Assembly: GCF_016595525.1 (NCBI RefSeq)
Contig: NZ_JAENII010000007.1
Location: forward strand, 186,001 to 250,000
DNA length: 64,000 nucleotides
Direction: 5' to 3'
DNA from: Haloferula rosea
GTDB lineage: Bacteria; Verrucomicrobiota; Verrucomicrobiia; Verrucomicrobiales; Akkermansiaceae
The position numbers and the translations under genes are program-made. This document shows, one piece after another, positions 48,930 to 59,510 of this stretch. The notes below the pieces were generated by a model, which ran no database searches, was not told the DNA's origin, and saw only the letters and a program-made list of their open reading frames with translations. Numbering within the stretch: the stretch's first letter is position 1; each line of letters opens with the position of its first letter.

Positions 48930-51062
48930 ATGAACACTCTCATCAAACTCATCACGATTCTCGTGGCCTGCGGACCACTCATGGTGACTGACGCCATGGC
49001 ACGAAGCTTCGGTGCAGGTGGAGGCGGCGGAAACCGCAGCTCAGGCGCCGCTCGTGGCGGCGGCATGTCGCGCGCACCGAGCCGATCGAACTTTTCCCGC
49101 TCGTCCAGCTCCCGAAACGCCTTCACCGGCTCGAAGGCCCGACCCACTGCGAGGCCCGCCACCAGGCCCACCACGCGTCCGTCCGTCCAGCGCCCCACGA
49201 CGAGACCTTCCATACAACGGCCGACAACCAAGCCAACGACCCGTCCGACAACTCGGCCGACGACCCGACCCACAACTCGGCCAACGACGAAACCAACCAC
49301 CCGGCCGACGACACGCCCATCCGTGCCGACTCAGCGTCCGTCCACAAAACCCACGCTTCCGACCCAGCGACCCTCGACCAAACCCACGCTGCCGACCCAG
49401 CGGCCTTCCACCAAGCCCTCGGTGCCGTCCCAGCGGCCGTCGACGAAGCCGACGCTACCAACGCAGCGGCCCAGCACGAGACCAAGCACACCCACGACGC
49501 GGCCTTCCACGCGCCCGGGGAATGTCACCTATCCCAAGCCCGTCAAGCCGATGCCTCTGCCGGGGAACCGACCAAGCACCAAACCGGGCATCAAACCCGG
49601 CGAACGACCATCCACCCTTCCATCCACCCGACCCGGGATTGGAGACCGGCCCGGAACCGGCATCGGGGACCGACCCAACAACCGGCCCGGCAGCAAACCA
49701 TGGGTTCGCCCGGGCAGTGACCGCCCGACAACCCGGCCCATCAAGCACCCGGATTTCGGAAATAACCGGCCTGGAGGTGGCCGACCCGGCAGCGGCAACA
49801 ACAACTGGATCAACATCGGCAACCGCCCAGCCATCGGCAACAACATCAACGTCAACATCAACAATAACTTCAAACGGAACCTCAACTGGTCGACCAACCG
49901 CCGACACTGGGGCTACAACCCGTGGTGGAACCGCCCGTCACAACGTCCATGGTACGGAGGCTGTTGGGGCTATGGCTGGAACAACCGCTGGCACCACCAT
50001 CACCGCTACTACTGGGGTGGCTACCGACCATGGCCTGGCTACGGTGGACCCAGTACCGGTGAGATGATCGCATGGGGCCTCGTCGGCTGGGGTCTTGGCA
50101 AGCTGATCTTCGATAGTGGCTACCAATCCTACAGCAACCCCTACCCGGTCCAACCCGTCCAGACCATCTACAAGACGGAGGTCACCTATCAGGAACCGAT
50201 TACCACCGTCGCCGAGCAGACCGCCCCGACCGATGAGTCGACGGCCGAGAAGATGGCGGAGAACTCCGAATCGTTCATCGAAAAATCCCAGCAGGCATTC
50301 AAAACGAATGATTTCCTCACAGCACTCGACTACGCGAACAAGGCCGTTGCAGAATCACCTGGTGATGGCGCCCTGCACGAATACCGTGCACTCGTCCTCT
50401 TCGCACTCGGCAAGTTCGGCGAAGCCGCCGGGGTCCTCAATCCCGTCCTCGTCGGAAGCCCCGGCTGGGATTGGACCACCATGATCACGGTGTACGACAC
50501 CCAGGAGACCTACGTGAAACAACTGCAGGCCCTCGAGAATTACGTGAAGGGCAACGACGGCTCGGCCGACGGACATTTCCTGCTCGGCTATCACTACATG
50601 GTCTGCGGACACCTGGAAAATGCAGCCGATCAGTTCGAGGCTGCCGTGAAGATCCAACCCGCCGACACGGTTTCCAAACAACTGGCCGAACTGGCCCGTT
50701 CCTCCACCGCTTCAGGCGAAGAGGACGACACCGACACCGAAGACCTCGGGGATGTCCCGGAACCCAAGCCGGTCGACGCCGAGAAGCTTCCCGGCTCGTG
50801 GGTCTCGGACAAGGGCGAGGAAGGCAAGGTCACCCTCTCCTTGAAGGACGATGGAAAGTTCGAGTGGACCTTCAGCCGGAAGGGCAAGGAAGACAGTTCC
50901 TTCGGCGGGGAGTATACCATCAACGAAGAAGGACTGCTCGTCCTCGACGCCGGTGAATCGCAAATGGTCGGCACCATCCAGATGCCATCCGACAGCGAAC
51001 TCCAGTTCGTCCTCGCAGGTGGCCCGACCGGCGATCCCGGACTCAGCTTCAACCGCTCCTGA
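48930..51062 (+). CDS. Exported Thr-Arg-Pro repeat protein with TPR and C-terminal beta domain
   Basis: A 710-residue protein with a signal peptide (about 1-24, ending AMA). A Gly/Ser/Arg-rich start (25-70) leads into TTRP/TTKP repeats (about 75-130) and an 11-residue repeat of the kind PTQRPSTKPTL (132-185). A Pro/Gly/Asn-rich zone follows (about 190-300). A segment rich in Trp, Tyr and His (about 320-375) has a short hydrophobic helix at about 377-392. TPR-like repeats (about 445-590) and a C-terminal lipocalin-like beta domain (about 620-710) complete it. The basic repeats could bind cell wall or polyanions; the TPR part suggests a docking role. No function is known for the whole. Confidence 0.82.
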   Translation: MNTLIKLITILVACGPLMVTDAMARSFGAGGGGGNRSSGAARGGGMSRAPSRSNFSRSSSSRNAFTGSKARPTARPATRPTTRPSVQRPTTRPSIQRPTTKPTTRPTTRPTTRPTTRPTTKPTTRPTTRPSVPTQRPSTKPTLPTQRPSTKPTLPTQRPSTKPSVPSQRPSTKPTLPTQRPSTRPSTPTTRPSTRPGNVTYPKPVKPMPLPGNRPSTKPGIKPGERPSTLPSTRPGIGDRPGTGIGDRPNNRPGSKPWVRPGSDRPTTRPIKHPDFGNNRPGGGRPGSGNNNWINIGNRPAIGNNINVNINNNFKRNLNWSTNRRHWGYNPWWNRPSQRPWYGGCWGYGWNNRWHHHHRYYWGGYRPWPGYGGPSTGEMIAWGLVGWGLGKLIFDSGYQSYSNPYPVQPVQTIYKTEVTYQEPITTVAEQTAPTDESTAEKMAENSESFIEKSQQAFKTNDFLTALDYANKAVAESPGDGALHEYRALVLFALGKFGEAAGVLNPVLVGSPGWDWTTMITVYDTQETYVKQLQALENYVKGNDGSADGHFLLGYHYMVCGHLENAADQFEAAVKIQPADTVSKQLAELARSSTASGEEDDTDTEDLGDVPEPKPVDAEKLPGSWVSDKGEEGKVTLSLKDDGKFEWTFSRKGKEDSSFGGEYTINEEGLLVLDAGESQMVGTIQMPSDSELQFVLAGGPTGDPGLSFNRS
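49221..49485 (+). repeat. Tandem repeats coding TTRP and PTQRPSTKPTL units
   Basis: A 12-base unit coding TTRP or TTKP runs at about 49221-49320, followed by a 33-base unit coding an 11-residue repeat, about five copies, at 49323-49485. Copies vary mostly at third codon positions. Length variation between strains is likely but untested. Confidence 0.8.
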
Positions 51063-51103: not shown

Positions 51104-53095
51104 TCAGGCCGAAAGGCTGGCTTCTCCGTTCACAGGTTTCCTCATGCTTCCGGATTCCCGCGATGCGTGGTGATCCTGGCATGATCCCCTTGGCGGACCG
51201 CCCGATTGCGCATCAAGGAACTCTTCGTAGCTGATCAGCTCCATGCGCCCGTCGACGTGCTCGACGATGGCAGTGAGACTCTCCACCCAGTCGCCGGAAT
51301 TCAGGTAGTGAATCCCCTCCACCTGCTTGTCCTCAGGCGTGTGGATGTGACCACAGATGATCCCATCGCACTTCCGGTGCCGGGCATACTGCTGCAGCTG
51401 GAATTCATAGTTGTCGACAAAGCTGACCGCGGACTTCACCCGCGCCTTCACCTTCTTGCTCAGCGAGTAATATCCCTTGCCGCGCCACGCCCGGAATCTG
51501 TTGTAGAGGCGGTTCACCGAGAGCATCGAATCGTAGCAAACTGCCCCGAGCCTCGCGAGCCACTTGTGGTGGGTTGACACACTGTCGAAGCCATCCCCGT
51601 GCACCACCAGATACTTCTTTCCGTCCACGCCATGGTGAATGTGCTCCTTCACGAAGTTCACCGGACCGAAGGCCAGGGGAAGAAAGCGGTCGAGGATATC
51701 ATCGTGATTCCCACGACAGTAGATCACCTCGGTGTCCTCCTTCTCCACCTTCTTGAGGACCTGCCTGATGAATCGGCTATGGCGTTTCCTCCAACGCGAC
51801 CCCCGCTTGAGCGCCCAACCGTCGATGATGTCACCGTTCAGGACCAGTTTACGACACCGCACCTGCTTGAGGAAATCGATCACCTCATGCACCTTGCTGT
51901 CCGGTGTGCCGAGGTGGACATCTGAAATGAACACGGTCCGGTATTCCTTCTGAAGCTGCTGCTTGCGCTGCTTCAGGCTGAGTGATCGACGCCTCCCTTC
52001 ACGAGCGATCCGCCCGAGGTTGCCCTCGAAGACATCCACCACCCGGTCCCAACCCAGCTCACTGGTGGTCCGCAGCGCCTGCTCCCTCATCCCACCCTGC
52101 CAGCGAACCAGCGAATCCTCGGCCAATTCCACGAACTCGTGCGAATTTCCCTTCGTCGCCTTCAGCCCGTTGATCCCGTGGCGAACATGCTGGGCGGAGG
52201 CCGCGTAGTCGTAACTCACCGTCACCAACCCGGAAGCCATCGCCTCGAGCAGGACATTGCCGAATGTCTCGGTCTCACTGGGAAAGAGAAGAATATCACT
52301 AGAGGCATAGTATCTGGCGAGATCCCTACCCGTCCGCACGCCCGCGAAATGCACGAATGAATTCTTCTCCTTCAAGGTTTCAAGAAGAGGCCCACCGCCG
52401 ACACAGACACACTGGAGATCCGGCACCCGTTCCCGCATGCGACGGAAACACTCCATCGCGAGAACCAGATTCTTCTCCGCTGCCACACGCCCGACGATCA
52501 GCGCCACCGGAGAGCCCCCGCGGGCACCCCATTCCGCCCGTAGCGCAGGATCCCTCTTGGACGGTTGAAACAACCGGGTATCCACCCCCCGCCCCATCAA
52601 TGCAACATTCTCAAATCCCTCGTCCTCCAGCATCGACACCACCTCGGCGGTCGGTGCCATAGTGACATTGGCACGGCGATGCACCCTCTTCAGATACGCC
52701 ATCGCCGCCGGCTGCAAGCCGCCCAAACGATACTGTTCCATGTACTGGTGGAAATTCGTGTGAAACCCGGTCGCGGCCGGAATCTCGAGCGACTTGGCCG
52801 CCCTGATCGCGGAAACTCCCAGCGGGCTCTCGGTGGCCACGTAAATCGCGTCGGGACGACGCTTCATCCAGCGCTTCCTCAGCTTGAACGGCCCCGGCAA
52901 CCCGATCCGCACCTCCTTGTAGCCCGGCAACGAAACCGATGGGGCCACGGTCTGCCGGGCCCCGTTCGCCCCACCCGTGCGGATGATGTGCACCATGTGT
53001 CCCCGCTCACGCAGGCCATCCACCAACCGACTCAGGGTCATGGCCACCCCGTTGACGTCGGGCGCGAAGGTGTCTGTGACGATGTCAAATCTCAT
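51104..53095 (-). CDS. Fusion: GT4 glycosyltransferase + LpxH-like metallophosphatase
   Basis: A 663-residue protein joining two enzymes. Residues about 1-370 form a GT-B glycosyltransferase of family 4: TDTFAPDVNGVAMTLSRL at the start, VGRVAAEKN, and the EX7E motif with Glu276 and Glu284 (ETFGNVLLEAMASG). After a basic linker (about 368-384), residues 385-640 form a calcineurin-like phosphoesterase: SDVHLG (391-396), NGDIIDG (420-426), GNHDD (462-466), VHGDGFD and GHIHTPE. The second part resembles UDP-2,3-diacylglucosamine hydrolase. The pairing suggests glycolipid or lipid A-like synthesis at the inner membrane. The ATG at 53095 starts a normal GT4. Confidence 0.9.
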   Translation of the reverse strand: MRFDIVTDTFAPDVNGVAMTLSRLVDGLRERGHMVHIIRTGGANGARQTVAPSVSLPGYKEVRIGLPGPFKLRKRWMKRRPDAIYVATESPLGVSAIRAAKSLEIPAATGFHTNFHQYMEQYRLGGLQPAAMAYLKRVHRRANVTMAPTAEVVSMLEDEGFENVALMGRGVDTRLFQPSKRDPALRAEWGARGGSPVALIVGRVAAEKNLVLAMECFRRMRERVPDLQCVCVGGGPLLETLKEKNSFVHFAGVRTGRDLARYYASSDILLFPSETETFGNVLLEAMASGLVTVSYDYAASAQHVRHGINGLKATKGNSHEFVELAEDSLVRWQGGMREQALRTTSELGWDRVVDVFEGNLGRIAREGRRRSLSLKQRKQQLQKEYRTVFISDVHLGTPDSKVHEVIDFLKQVRCRKLVLNGDIIDGWALKRGSRWRKRHSRFIRQVLKKVEKEDTEVIYCRGNHDDILDRFLPLAFGPVNFVKEHIHHGVDGKKYLVVHGDGFDSVSTHHKWLARLGAVCYDSMLSVNRLYNRFRAWRGKGYYSLSKKVKARVKSAVSFVDNYEFQLQQYARHRKCDGIICGHIHTPEDKQVEGIHYLNSGDWVESLTAIVEHVDGRMELISYEEFLDAQSGGPPRGSCQDHHASRESGSMRKPVNGEASLSA

Positions 53096-53302
53096 GAATA
53101 GTCCGGGGTTGCTGACAAGTTCACTCCGCTTTTGCCCCCATCCCCCGGGCTCCACCACGTCCAATCCGGTGCCATTTCCGACACAAATCACTGATAATCT
53201 GCTTCATGGAGCGATGAGCCGCATGATGCCCGGCCACTGCTTTTTCTCCATCCTGACCTTGCCTGTCCTTGGCAGTCAGCCTAGTGGCTCTAAAGTCCGG
53301 GC

Positions 53303-55268: not shown

Positions 55269-56720
55269 ATGTATCTCGTGACCATCGGACTCGAAGTCCA
55301 CTGCCAGGTGAAAACCCGCACCAAGATGTTCTGTTCCTGCGAAACATCCTTCGCAGACGAACCGAACACCCACACCTGCCCCGTTTGCCTCGGCCTGCCC
55401 GGCGCCCTTCCCGTTCTGAACCGGCACGCGATTGAGAAAACCCTGCTCGCAGGACTCCAACTCGACTGCGGTGCCCCGGAAATCTCGAAGTGGGATCGGA
55501 AGAACTACTTCTATCCGGACATGCCCAAGAACTACCAGACCACCCAGATGGATCTGCCCTTGTGCATCGGTGGCGAAGTCCCCCTCTACCACCACAATTA
55601 TCCCACCGACGTCCGCAAGAACATCCCGCGCCCGGACTTCAAGTGCCGACTGAACCGCATCCACCTTGAAGAGGACGTCGCAAAATCCACCCACCTCGGC
55701 ACCAGCTCCATCATCGACTACAACCGCGCCGGCACTCCCCTGATGGAGATCGTGACCGAGCCCGACATCCAGTCGTCCGCCGAAGCCTTCGCCTTCCTCC
55801 GTTCGCTCCAGATGATCCTCCAGCAAGCAGGCATCTCCGATGCCGACATGGAGAAGGGTCAGCTGCGCTGTGATGTGAACATCTCCATCCGAAAAGAAGA
55901 GAGCGATCCACTCGGCAACCGAATCGAGCTGAAGAACCTCAATTCCATCTCGGCCGTGCGCCGCGCGATCGACTTCGAGATCGAGCGCCAGTCCGCCGAC
56001 CTCGATCAAGGCATCCCGCAGGTCCAGTCGACCTGCCGATGGGATGACGACCGCGGTGAATCGCAGCTCCTCCGCACCAAGGAAGACGCCCACGACTATC
56101 GCTACTTCCCGTGCCCCGACCTGCTTCCCATCCGCACGGCACCCATCCTCGAAAAGGTCCGCCCCCTGACGACCGAGCGACCGCATGATCGCGCCAGCCG
56201 CTACGAGGCAGATTATCAGCTGACCGCCTACGACGCCTCGGTCCTGTCATCCGACATCCCTTTGGCCACCTACTTCGAAACCCTCGCAGCCACTCCCAAG
56301 CTGCCCGGCAAGAAGGCCGCCAACTTCCTCATCAATACCCTCCTCGGTCTACTCAACGAGCGCTCGACCCCCGTCGCCGACTCGCCGGTCACCCCGGAGA
56401 AAACCGGTCAACTTCTCACTCTTGTCGAGTCCGGTCAACTCGCCCTGAACCAAGCCAAGGAAGTCCTGCTTGTCCTCCTGGATTCGCCGGACAAGGAACC
56501 GTCCACCGTGGCCAAGGAGATGGGTTTCGAACCCGCCGACGCCAGTGAGATCGAGGCATTCTGCGACCAGGCGATCGAGGCAAATCCCAAGCAGGTCGCC
56601 GAGATACAGGCAGGCAACGAGAAACTCGTCAACTTCCTCACCGGACAGGTCATGAAGCTCTCCAAGGGCAAGGCCAATCCGAAGCAGGTCACCGAGATCA
56701 TCCGCAGCAAGATTCTCTAG
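55269..56720 (+). CDS. gatB: Aspartyl/glutamyl-tRNA amidotransferase subunit B
   Basis: With GatA and GatC it converts misacylated Glu-tRNA(Gln) or Asp-tRNA(Asn) to the correct form. The 483-residue protein starts with the family segment YLVTIGLEVHCQVKTRTKMF. Zinc-binding cysteines appear as CSC and CPVC (FCSCETSF, TCPVCLGLPGALPVLN). HLEEDVAKS is the catalytic-domain signature, and the C-terminal YqeY-like tail (about 360-483) is present. GatA and GatC are not in the window, so the subunits are scattered. Confidence 0.97.
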   Translation: MYLVTIGLEVHCQVKTRTKMFCSCETSFADEPNTHTCPVCLGLPGALPVLNRHAIEKTLLAGLQLDCGAPEISKWDRKNYFYPDMPKNYQTTQMDLPLCIGGEVPLYHHNYPTDVRKNIPRPDFKCRLNRIHLEEDVAKSTHLGTSSIIDYNRAGTPLMEIVTEPDIQSSAEAFAFLRSLQMILQQAGISDADMEKGQLRCDVNISIRKEESDPLGNRIELKNLNSISAVRRAIDFEIERQSADLDQGIPQVQSTCRWDDDRGESQLLRTKEDAHDYRYFPCPDLLPIRTAPILEKVRPLTTERPHDRASRYEADYQLTAYDASVLSSDIPLATYFETLAATPKLPGKKAANFLINTLLGLLNERSTPVADSPVTPEKTGQLLTLVESGQLALNQAKEVLLVLLDSPDKEPSTVAKEMGFEPADASEIEAFCDQAIEANPKQVAEIQAGNEKLVNFLTGQVMKLSKGKANPKQVTEIIRSKIL

Positions 56721-56834
56721 CAGGAGGCGCGGTCCTCCCTCAGACGCAGCCCGCCCCCTCCATCGTCATCCTCGATGTTCCGCCATCGAGTTTCGATTCC
56801 ATGATTGATTCCCGGTCCCCTAGGCTACGGGGCG

Positions 56835-58610
56835 ATGAAATCATGTGCCCCCACTCCAGCATACACCATCGCCGAGGCCACCAGCTCCCAGCGCGACGCG
56901 ATCTATCGCCATCGTCATGATGTCTACGCCCGGGAGATCGGCCAGCACCCGGAGAACGAGTCCCGCACCCTCCAGGACGCGCTCGACCTTTCGAACCGCT
57001 ACCTCGTGGTCACCCACGGCTCCGATCTGGCCGGCTTCATCAGCATCACACCTCCCGGCGATCACGGTTACTCCATCGACAAGTATTTCGACCGCGAAGA
57101 CCTCCCCTTTCAAGTCGGTCGGCAATCATACGAGCTGAGACTGCTCACCGTCCTGCCTCAATTTCGTCATACCCCGACCGCTGCCATCCTCATGTTCGCC
57201 GCGTTCCGCTGGATCGAATCCCGGGGCGGACTCCAGATCATTGCCATTGGCCGACGCGAAGTCAGCGCCATGTATCGCCGCTGCGGCATGAACGAGGTCG
57301 GGCGATCCACCCGTTCAGGCGCCGTCACCTATGATCTCATGCATGGCTCCGTGCGCGATATCAGGCAGTCCATCGAAGACTCCCGCTTGCCCGCGCGCAT
57401 CGAGCACGACACCCACTGGCATCTTGAGATTCCCCTGCGAAAGCCCGCCGATTGCTTTCACGGTGGCGCCTTCTTTGAGGCCATTGGCACTGGCTTCAAG
57501 CATCTCGACCGACACCGGGACATCATCAATGCCGACGTCCTCGACGCCTGGTTCCCGCCGGCTCCCGCTGCTCTCGAAGCCCTTCACGCAGAGCTACCAT
57601 GGTTGCTTCGCACTTCCCCGCCCACCGACAGTGAAGGGCTCGTCCGAGCCATCGCAAGGGCTCGAGATATTCCCGAATCCTCCATCCTCGTGGGCGCCGG
57701 CTCTTCGGACCTGATCTACCGGGCCCTTCCTCGCTGGCTGGATTCCGGCTCGACCGCCCTCATTCTCGATCCGACCTACGGGGAGTATGCCCACATTCTG
57801 GAGAAGGTGATCGGTTGCAGCGTGGTTCGCGCCACCCTTGAGCGGGAGAACGACTACCTGCACGACTTCGAGCAACTTGCCGGGAAGATCGCAGCAGGCC
57901 CCGACCTCGTTGCCTTCGTCAACCCCAACAGCCCGACGGGCAAAGTCATCGACGCCGACACCCTCAAGGCCCTGATCTCCATCGCCCCGACCCGAACGCG
58001 CTTCTGGATCGACGAGACCTACATCGACTACGCGGGTGGCCCTTCACTGGAAAGGTTCGCCGCCGATCATGACCAACTGATCATTTGCAAGTCGATGTCG
58101 AAGGCCTACGCCCTGAGCGGCGCACGGGTCGCCTACCTCTGCGCCAGCCCGCACCAGCTGGAGGAACTTCGATCCCTCACCCCTCCATGGGTCATCGGAC
58201 TCCCCTCGCAGGTCGCCGCCGTCAAGGCACTCAAATCCCCCACCTACTACGAACACCGTTGGCAAGAGACGGCCAAGCTCAGAAGGGAACTGGAAGACAA
58301 ACTCGAAGAGCTCGACTTCCACGTGACCCCGGGCTGTGCGAACTTCGTCCTCGCCCATCTCCCGGACCGGCTTCCGGATGCCCGCTGGCTTGTCGAGACC
58401 TGCCGCGAACGGGGGCTCTTCATCCGCAATGCCAGCCCGATGGGCGAGAAGCTGGGCAGGAGGGCCATCCGCATCGCCGTCAAGGACCGTGAAACCCAAG
58501 GCCGAATTGTCCGAATCCTCCGCGAGGTGTTGGGAACCGCGGGGCCGTCCAGCGGGCCCACCGTCTCATGCACGACGACCGCATCCCATACCCCAAACCG
58601 CATCGTTTGA
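56835..58610 (+). CDS. Fusion: GNAT-like acyltransferase + PLP aminotransferase
   Basis: A 591-residue two-domain protein. The N-terminal domain (about 10-180) is GNAT-like and near the FeeM/autoinducer-synthase type: IYRHRHDVYAREIGQH, LRLLTVLPQFRHTPTAAILMFAAFRW and a C-terminal MYRRCGMNEVG. The second domain (about 205-585) is a fold-type I aminotransferase close to histidinol-phosphate aminotransferase: NPNSPTG (363-369), DETYIDY with Asp393 and Tyr396, and the PLP lysine Lys423 in SMSKAYALSGAR. The likely product is an acylated amino compound made from a 2-oxo or amino precursor. The ATG at 56835 starts the first strand; an ATG at 56805 is possible. The next gene is a DNA methyltransferase. 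Confidence 0.85.
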   Translation: MKSCAPTPAYTIAEATSSQRDAIYRHRHDVYAREIGQHPENESRTLQDALDLSNRYLVVTHGSDLAGFISITPPGDHGYSIDKYFDREDLPFQVGRQSYELRLLTVLPQFRHTPTAAILMFAAFRWIESRGGLQIIAIGRREVSAMYRRCGMNEVGRSTRSGAVTYDLMHGSVRDIRQSIEDSRLPARIEHDTHWHLEIPLRKPADCFHGGAFFEAIGTGFKHLDRHRDIINADVLDAWFPPAPAALEALHAELPWLLRTSPPTDSEGLVRAIARARDIPESSILVGAGSSDLIYRALPRWLDSGSTALILDPTYGEYAHILEKVIGCSVVRATLERENDYLHDFEQLAGKIAAGPDLVAFVNPNSPTGKVIDADTLKALISIAPTRTRFWIDETYIDYAGGPSLERFAADHDQLIICKSMSKAYALSGARVAYLCASPHQLEELRSLTPPWVIGLPSQVAAVKALKSPTYYEHRWQETAKLRRELEDKLEELDFHVTPGCANFVLAHLPDRLPDARWLVETCRERGLFIRNASPMGEKLGRRAIRIAVKDRETQGRIVRILREVLGTAGPSSGPTVSCTTTASHTPNRIV

Positions 58611-58646: not shown

Positions 58647-59510
58647 ATGCCGAGCTGCCGCGCGCAGTCTCCCCCGGTGATTCCTGAATCCTTCCAGCTC
58701 CGACATGGCGATTGCCTTGAGGTTCTCCCTTCCCTGGATCCAGGCTCACACGACCTCGTCGTCACCTCTCCGCCCTACAACCTCGGGATCAACTATCGAT
58801 CCTTCGATGACACCGCCGGCCGCTCGGATTTCCTCGAATGGTGTCGCCTCTGGTCGGCTGAAGTGAAGCGTGTGCTGACCGATGACGGATCGTTTTTCCT
58901 CAACGTCGGAGCCGCACCGTCCAATCCCCTCTTCCCCCACCAGGTGATCCTCGCCCTGACCGGGGGGCCCGAGCCTCTCTTCGTCCTTCAGAACACCTTC
59001 CACTGGGTGAAGTCGATCACCGTCCAGACCCGCAAGGGCGAACAGATCAGCGCCGGGCATTTCAAACCGATCAACTCCAAACGCTACGTCAACGACTGCC
59101 ACGAGTATGTCTTCCACCTGACCAAGACCGGCGAGGTTCCACTCGACCGCCGCGGCGCCGGGGTTCCCTATCAGGACAAGTCCAACATCGTCCGCTGGGG
59201 CCACACCGATGGCATCGACAAGCGCTGCCGTGGAAACACCTGGTTCATTCCCTACGACACCATCGTCTCCCGGGACAAGGAACGCCCCCACCCGGCGACC
59301 TTCCCGATCGGCCTCGTCGAGCAGTGCATCCGGCTCCACGGAGTGGGCGAACGGACCCGCCTCCTCGATCCCTTTCTCGGCATCGGCACCTCGGCGGTCG
59401 CCGCGAAAAGAATGGGCGTCGCAGGCTTCACAGGCATCGAACTCGACGATTACTACCTCAGCGTGGCCCGCGAACGGCTCGACCCACCCGAGGGCGAGTT
59501 AAAGCTGTAG
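58647..59510 (+). CDS. DNA methyltransferase, beta-type (probable N4-cytosine or N6-adenine)
   Basis: A 287-residue SAM-dependent DNA methyltransferase. The catalytic TSPPYNLG motif (40-47) comes before the SAM-binding LLDPFLGIGTS (239-249), the beta-class order. SPPY rather than DPPY is usual for N4-cytosine enzymes, although some N6-adenine enzymes have it. The middle (about 85-235) is the target-recognition part. The start is uncertain: an ATG at 58647 is used; a GTG at 58677 gives MIPESFQLRHGDCLEVL, also credible. No restriction endonuclease is adjacent, so it is an orphan methyltransferase or its partner is elsewhere. Confidence 0.88.
   Translation: MPSCRAQSPPVIPESFQLRHGDCLEVLPSLDPGSHDLVVTSPPYNLGINYRSFDDTAGRSDFLEWCRLWSAEVKRVLTDDGSFFLNVGAAPSNPLFPHQVILALTGGPEPLFVLQNTFHWVKSITVQTRKGEQISAGHFKPINSKRYVNDCHEYVFHLTKTGEVPLDRRGAGVPYQDKSNIVRWGHTDGIDKRCRGNTWFIPYDTIVSRDKERPHPATFPIGLVEQCIRLHGVGERTRLLDPFLGIGTSAVAAKRMGVAGFTGIELDDYYLSVARERLDPPEGELKL

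Follow-up and report, generated by a model that had tools for sequence, protein, structure and literature searches.

The window analysed here, a stretch of 64,000 nucleotides from Haloferula rosea, carries a gene in which a GNAT N-acyltransferase and a PLP-dependent enzyme are fused in a real, uninterrupted single frame. We give an even chance to the reading that this fusion synthesizes an N-acyl amino-alcohol phosphate on its own, the PLP half making the amine and the GNAT half acylating it. If true, one gene would supply both steps to an amide-bearing lipid phosphate, and a new membrane-lipid class could be sought by mass spectrometry in cultivable bacteria; amide lipids of this kind are expected to withstand ester-cleaving enzymes. 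What appears to be new is how widespread the family is, that its phosphate site is retained and that partners of phospholipid type accompany it. The formation of an N-acyl serinol by an N-acyl synthase is already known in kind, according to the accessible part of PMC11271093. The gene and its parts are as follows.

56835..58610, + strand: fusion gene, 591 amino acids plus stop, ATG start; full length conserved in relatives.
56856..57422, + strand: GNAT N-acyltransferase half, residues 8-196, supported by Pfam FeeM and Acetyltransf_5 and by the 78-sequence alignment.
57441..58544, + strand: PLP-dependent half, residues 203-570, CobD/HisC fold, assigned by Aminotran_1_2, structure comparison and residues.
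57441..57626, + strand: N-terminal arm of the PLP half, residues 203-264, with HGG at 209-211, then NADVLDAW and TSPPT.
58101..58103, + strand: codon of the Schiff-base lysine for PLP, Lys423, which aligns with its HisC/CobD counterpart.
58545..58607, + strand: C-terminal tail, residues 571-591, which aligns poorly and is modelled with low confidence (block pLDDT 47, 32 and 36).

An in-frame TTG upstream at 56805 would extend the protein to 601 residues. In a Pfam scan of the whole protein, Aminotran_1_2 (PF00155) covers residues 266-555 (E 1.2e-40, 140.3 bits vs a cut-off of 19.7), and this match together with the catalytic lysine places the window protein among the fold-type I PLP enzymes. 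The fusion of the two halves, as claimed in the first-pass annotation, is thus borne out by one frame, by matches to both domains and by copies in many genomes; full-length copies in other genomes, in loci of named records and on Streptomyces plasmids exclude an assembly artefact. An AlphaFold2 model computed from the 78-sequence alignment reached a mean pLDDT of 92.6 and a pTM of 0.84. This alignment comprises the window, five of 11 long loci considered (nine of which carry the fusion family) and 72 of 80 named-record loci; L037, L038, L039, L059, L060, L063, L070 and L101 were left out by eye as near-copies, duplicates or contig-edge copies. Two further alignments were used, one with 61 of the 78 rows plus two Streptomyces copies and one with 17 rows.

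Within the phylum, 9 of 387 genomes, that of the window among them, have a full-length copy. Beyond these nine, only the PLP half is present in genome G087, and the remaining eight genomes with a match are likewise hit in the PLP half alone. A scan of named records, built on a nine-sequence alignment, yielded 155 relatives in their contigs (80 loci kept; 45-60% identity), and eight Streptomyces plasmids carry the fusion at 43-47% identity. The 72 of these loci that entered the tree bear the labels Verrucomicrobiota, Planctomycetota, Bacteroidota, Kiritimatiellota, Chloroflexota, Acidobacteriota and others, many of them being metagenome bins whose phylum labels are possibly wrong. In a quick tree of 80 copies, grouping by phylum is partial (17 label changes vs a least possible 9), and the window copy groups with those of Haloferula, its own genus, and Luteolibacter. 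Records that carry the gene are titled Haloferula, Luteolibacter, Verrucomicrobium, Carboxylicivirga, Muriicola, Segetibacter, Occallatibacter and Streptomyces. No full-length relative was found in phages, where none of 40 matching records covers 80%. In the six annotated Streptomyces plasmid records the gene is named 'histidinol-phosphate transaminase', which hides the fusion.

Two variants of the PLP domain were met along the way. The PLP-only version in G087 (L032:9363-10511, - strand, 382 amino acids) lacks the GNAT half and is clustered with genes for an MFS-PlsC-AMP protein, a hydrolase, a membrane protein and a radical SAM protein; the rest of this genome yielded no good GNAT relative (best E 2.5e-4). 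A Sinorhizobium fredii plasmid encodes a different fusion (L151:757-2472) with a PLP domain of the same type at its C-terminus and a weak NTP-transferase match at its N-terminus (E 0.017), in the surroundings of genes for a phosphoenolpyruvate mutase, a CDP-alcohol phosphatidyltransferase and methyltransferases.

As for the PLP half, Lys423, already named as the PLP lysine in the first-pass annotation, aligns with the lysine of HisC and CobD and is invariant in all 78 aligned relatives. The designation of this half as HisC-like, in contrast, turned out to be too narrow, since HisC comes first by little in single-sequence and fold searches, whereas the balance tips toward CobD in the curated models, the family profile and a small tree. 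The comparison of the predicted structure ends in a tie, with VIA Z scores of 43.2 to HisC 8bj3 (rmsd 2.4 over 355) and 42.5 to CobD 1lc7 (rmsd 2.5 over 352); the VIA alignment to CobD 1lkc begins with model residue 209 paired to chain residue 8. A housekeeping HisC is ruled out by the missed equivalog cut-off of TIGR01141 (179.5 bits vs 276.55) in combination with two changed pocket residues (E317 and W452), and no housekeeping role, which the first-pass annotation had also considered, was found for the fusion. The window genome has a separate gene (L002/L115) that groups with the HisC rows of the small tree.

The nature of the substrate can be approached via the known HisC pocket. According to the available portion of PMC4703992, docked histidinol phosphate is bound in M. 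tuberculosis HisC with its phosphate held by Asn176, Arg337 and Arg346, and Asn103, Tyr127, Met129, Pro260 and Tyr261 are among the ring-pocket residues. These residues were transferred to the fusion by our own mapping via sequence alignments, in which spacings agree at several points. All three phosphate ligands are retained in 78 of 78 sequences as N365 (Asn176), R531 and R546 (Arg337 and Arg346), and two ring-pocket residues are kept as Y315 (Tyr127) and P451 (Pro260). Met129 and Tyr261, in contrast, are replaced by E317 and W452, again in 78 of 78, and neither exchange was found in any HisC or HisC-like row of the alignments inspected. The exchange of Asn103 for serine (S291) was dropped as a mark against HisC, because this position varies among HisC rows. 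Because the phosphate triad is retained, the substrate should carry a phosphate; it likely, though not provenly, lacks an imidazole. Hence, judging by these residues, the amine is probably a phosphate ester and not an amino acid or homoserine.

The triad, E317 and W452 fall outside the patterns of the named-record scan and are retained in Streptomyces as well. The invariance of HGG (78 of 78) and NADVLD, on the other hand, is partly built in, as both stretches served as scan patterns for the named-record loci; in the Streptomyces copies, which came from a different search, HGG and ADVLDAW are retained, with alanine in place of Asn232. HGG, which we read as a CobD mark from the aligned CobD rows, is common to the family and the CobD rows together with W452 and a basic residue at position 550, the last two being present also in 6oux. 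Owing to these features common to CobD, transamination is a tentative assignment.

Conceivably, the PLP half is instead a CobD-type decarboxylase that converts phosphoserine into ethanolamine phosphate or phosphothreonine into aminopropanol phosphate, with subsequent N-acylation by the GNAT half to an N-acylethanolamine phosphate-like compound. This alternative survives best, though we consider it unlikely. In addition to the residues just described, it is favoured by the curated models, among which CobD (TIGR01140) ranks first with 187.1 bits vs 179.5 bits for HisC, and by the family-profile search of the PDB, which is led by SMUL_1544 (6oux, titled a decarboxylase) with 130.5 bits and CobD with 128.2 bits, ahead of the best HisC with 120.6 bits. 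Moreover, in a tree of 23 hand-chosen rows (9 family members and 14 other sequences), the family joins the CobD rows at 87/87 under midpoint rooting. Yet, the same tree sets the family apart as one clade (100/100) on a long stem of 1.97 changes per column, the CobD score lies 103 bits under the equivalog cut-off of 290.55, and the single-sequence search puts HisC (95.3 bits) above 6oux and CobD (78.7 and 66.6 bits). W452 was dropped as a decarboxylase mark, since the S. fredii fusion, which need not be a decarboxylase, has the same tryptophan. In addition, an ethanolamine product would leave the PlsC domain encoded next to some copies (see below) without a hydroxyl group to acylate.

The GNAT half, for which the first-pass annotation proposed a place near FeeM and the acyl-homoserine-lactone synthases, is indeed close to the former. 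When the whole window protein was scanned with Pfam, FeeM (PF21926) matched residues 22-160 with 25.5 bits (cut-off 27) and Acetyltransf_5 residues 27-119 with 24.0 bits (cut-off 22.4); the GNAT half alone passes both cut-offs with 28.9 and 28.2 bits, respectively. Across 63 family members, FeeM is found in 47, Acetyltransf_5 in 44 and the generic Acetyltransf_1 in 62 (E 0.01 or better). The autoinducer synthase family Autoind_synth (PF00765) reaches this threshold in only seven of the 63, the window member not among them. The affinity to autoinducer synthases is weak, and a LuxI-like signal specifically is not supported. Proximity to the PEP-CTERM/exosortase-associated acyltransferases is supported by TIGR03694, which matches 27 of 63 members at the same threshold; the window GNAT half itself matches no NCBIfam model, TIGR03694 included, at E 0.01 or better. 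In the Streptomyces copy L124, scanned whole, this half is recognized by Acetyltransf_1 only (E 0.071) and by no FeeM model, and PDB sequence searches with the GNAT half gave weak GNAT matches only (best E 0.015 and 0.52). Ten of its residues are invariant in 78 of 78 sequences (R27, E34, Q37, T72, E100, R102, R111, R125, G151 and G162). These family matches point to a long-chain acyl donor, without proof.

Under the proposed N-acyl amino-alcohol phosphate synthase, the PLP half would generate a small phosphate-ester amine, the first choice being serinol phosphate from transamination of DHAP, and the GNAT half would then transfer a long-chain acyl group onto its nitrogen, with acyl-ACP or acyl-CoA as donor. 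The serinol product would be a lipid phosphate, i.e. an amide analogue of 2-acyl lysophosphatidate, to which PlsC/Aas-type enzymes could attach the second chain and whose phosphate could be activated with CTP by a CdsA-type enzyme, as in ordinary phospholipid synthesis. Serinol phosphate is preferred because its acylated product offers both a free hydroxyl group for PlsC/Aas and a phosphate for CdsA, partners that were found. We infer from sequence, fold and neighbourhood which two reactions take place and in which order, which amine and acyl donor are used and what becomes of the product; at this level, the two catalytic halves lend support to the earlier idea that one chain makes an amine and then acylates it. 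A further step, which we regard as doubtful, would be that many bacteria build phospholipids on serinol in place of glycerol, with an amide at the middle carbon. In that case, the fusion would convert DHAP into 2-N-acylserinol phosphate, a PlsC/Aas enzyme would attach the second chain and a CdsA-type enzyme would form the CDP-lipid, which would provide a phosphatidate analogue without glycerol-3-phosphate acylation.

The genes next to the fusion in the window, gatB upstream (55269-56720) and a DNA methyltransferase-like gene downstream (58647-59510), explain nothing of the enzyme. An operon conserved across all phyla was rejected: in a scan of 80 loci (scripted ORF calls, neighbours of at least 80 amino acids, E 1e-5), each of the 25 commonest Pfam families listed accounts for at most 4 of the 75 upstream and 5 of the 67 downstream neighbours, and S-methyl_trans, the commonest upstream family, stems from one planctomycete group. 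The majority of loci, the window included, thus have no neighbour in common. Automatic ORF clustering mixed genuine genes with shadow frames in the GC-rich DNA and was used for candidate picking only. Lipid-type neighbours do recur in separate clades of the tree. In seven of the eight Streptomyces plasmids, the 3' end of the fusion overlaps the start of a cytidylyltransferase gene by 4 bp. This gene is annotated as phosphatidate cytidylyltransferase in the six annotated records and was read directly in the unannotated L126; for the two encoded proteins that were scanned, CTP_transf_1 matches at 3.2e-31 and 1.6e-29 were obtained. In the eighth plasmid, L128, the sequence diverges and no CdsA-like gene was found. 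As the plasmids are related, the overlap is an arrangement of one lineage. One or two CTP_transf_1 genes are present in each of 10 genomes searched, with no clear relation to the fusion neighbourhood.

A second lipid-type partner is a relative of an MFS+PlsC+AMP-binding protein, which adjoins the gene or lies within about 2.4 kb of it in 10 of 87 distinct loci (89 searched, L060 and L063 apparently being the same contigs as L029 and L031). The three domains were scanned in L030 only and the other loci were assigned by tblastn, with some ORF calls splitting the protein. Six of the ten loci are Opitutaceae or family code f5, which includes a contig titled Opitutaceae; L030, L032 and L107 go with Kiritimatiellota, and in L054, labelled Nitrospirae, the partner is three genes away. 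The count includes the PLP-only locus L032, and it excludes L047 and L048, where only the PlsC part is weakly matched (26-27% identity) within 1.2 kb. Since such relatives also occur elsewhere in all 10 genomes searched, finding one of them near the gene carries less weight than it would for a rare protein. A lipase-like alpha/beta hydrolase is encoded in six of the ten loci, three of Opitutaceae/f5 and three of Kiritimatiellota, and is about 50% identical between the two groups. Gene order varies between and within groups, as expected for a kept association rather than plain synteny.

Other neighbours are recorded here as observations in their own right. A B12-binding radical SAM gene adjoins the fusion gene in Kiritimatiellota-type and Planctomycetota loci, mostly accompanied by a gene for a 120-aa membrane protein without Pfam family; a remnant is seen in L081.

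L085:4034-5365, strand not given: B12-binding radical SAM gene beside the gene.
L087:12159-13449, strand not given: B12-binding radical SAM gene beside the gene.
L104:130-1470, strand not given: B12-binding radical SAM gene beside the gene.
L107:3538-4890, strand not given: B12-binding radical SAM gene beside the gene.
L030:7150-8466, - strand: B12-binding radical SAM gene beside the gene.
L032:7692-9005, - strand: B12-binding radical SAM gene beside the gene.

LysR-type regulators stand beside the copies in L024 (7770-8690), L083 (8978-9868, - strand) and L109 (1288-2262, - strand), the one in L024 being called by reading; two upstream neighbours match LysR_substrate and HTH_1. A sigma-54 activator was identified by scanning in L087 (8166-9794, - strand), and that of L085 (41-1585, - strand) is similar. 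In L083, L109, L085 and L087, the regulator genes point away from the fusion gene. The window itself encodes a further chain that joins two lipid-type halves in one frame (51104-53191, - strand, 695 aa). The best model for its glycosyltransferase is GlcN-phosphatidylglycerol synthase (128.5 bits, below the cut-off of 480), and its metallophosphoesterase matches the UDP-2,3-diacylglucosamine diphosphatase model with 45.6 bits (cut-off 134). Next to it, 48930-51062 (+ strand) encodes a 710-aa protein with a long low-complexity repeat of the TRPTTRPS type and no NCBIfam match at E 1e-8.

By analogy with bacterial N-acyl amides that act on host receptors, the end product could also be an N-acyl amino acid or N-acyl serinol signal released without phosphate, which we regard as improbable. 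The proximity of the GNAT half to FeeM and, weakly, to autoinducer synthases is consistent with a signal, as are the lipase-like hydrolase and the LysR-type and sigma-54 regulators beside a few copies. A precedent is the Gemella N-acyl synthase, which yields N-palmitoyl serinol according to what is accessible of PMC11271093. On the other side, no phosphatase family is prominent among the most frequent neighbour families listed. Moreover, CdsA-like and PlsC/Aas-type proteins are generally known to act on lipid phosphates and membranes. Where the first-pass annotation left the choice between a signal and a lipid pathway, the lipid is favoured by the lipid-gene neighbours of some relatives, and a LuxI-like signal specifically is not supported, the retained phosphate triad making the amine probably a phosphate ester. 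Still less probable is an ordinary or unrelated task such as small-amine acetylation for a cofactor or capsule with coincidental lipid neighbours, for which the lack of a neighbour that recurs across phyla and the generic Acetyltransf_1 match in nearly all members could be cited, yet FeeM and Acetyltransf_5 match most members, and the lipid neighbours occur in separate tree clades and with translational overlap in Streptomyces.

A literature search gave no description of a GNAT-PLP fusion, an absence that is weak because most subscription papers were outside its scope. Among known enzymes, CobD (L-threonine-O-3-phosphate decarboxylase) resembles the PLP half in fold, HGG, W452 and the basic residue at 550; unlike CobD, the fusion has an attached GNAT half, scores below the CobD cut-off and forms its own clade. 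HisC (histidinol-phosphate aminotransferase) shares the fold, the PLP lysine, the phosphate triad, Y315 and P451, whereas the fusion falls below the HisC cut-off and carries E317 and W452 in place of Met129 and Tyr261. The GNAT half resembles FeeM/OlsB-type N-acyltransferases through its FeeM and Acetyltransf_5 matches, the latter being the family into which OlsB presumably falls. FeeM and OlsB-type enzymes acylate amino acids; the fusion, in contrast, probably produces the amine within its own chain.

Closer to the proposed chemistry are Cj1437, Cj1436 and the N-terminal domain of RtxA, which we take to belong to the HisC/CobD group of PLP enzymes. Cj1437 forms (S)-serinol phosphate from DHAP and Cj1436 forms ethanolamine phosphate by decarboxylation of phosphoserine (PMC11800397), while the N-terminal domain of RtxA, fused to a dihydrorhizobitoxine synthase, transaminates DHAP (PMC3222319). 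In contrast to the fusion with its GNAT half, no fused acyltransferase is named for Cj1437 or RtxA in the accessible parts of these two papers (PMC11800397, PMC3222319). The likeness of Cj1437 and the RtxA domain to the PLP half lies in the reaction proposed for the latter, from DHAP to serinol phosphate.

The Gemella N-acyl serinol synthase, a member of the human-microbiome N-acyl synthase family of Cohen et al. 2017, reportedly consists of an N-acyltransferase joined to an aminotransferase. It resembles the fusion in this reported make-up and in its serinol amide product, of the kind proposed for the fusion, and differs in that its N-palmitoyl serinol is without phosphate, whereas the fusion is proposed to make a phosphate. 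With Gemella N-palmitoyl serinol in print (PMC11271093, in the part available), the undescribed pathway envisaged in the first-pass annotation may be less new than thought. A review, in its accessible text, imagines that host enzymes convert such N-acyl amides into phospholipid-like molecules (PMC12594153). If the Gemella enzyme is an acyltransferase-aminotransferase pair, the fusion family would be its relative in logic and possibly in descent.
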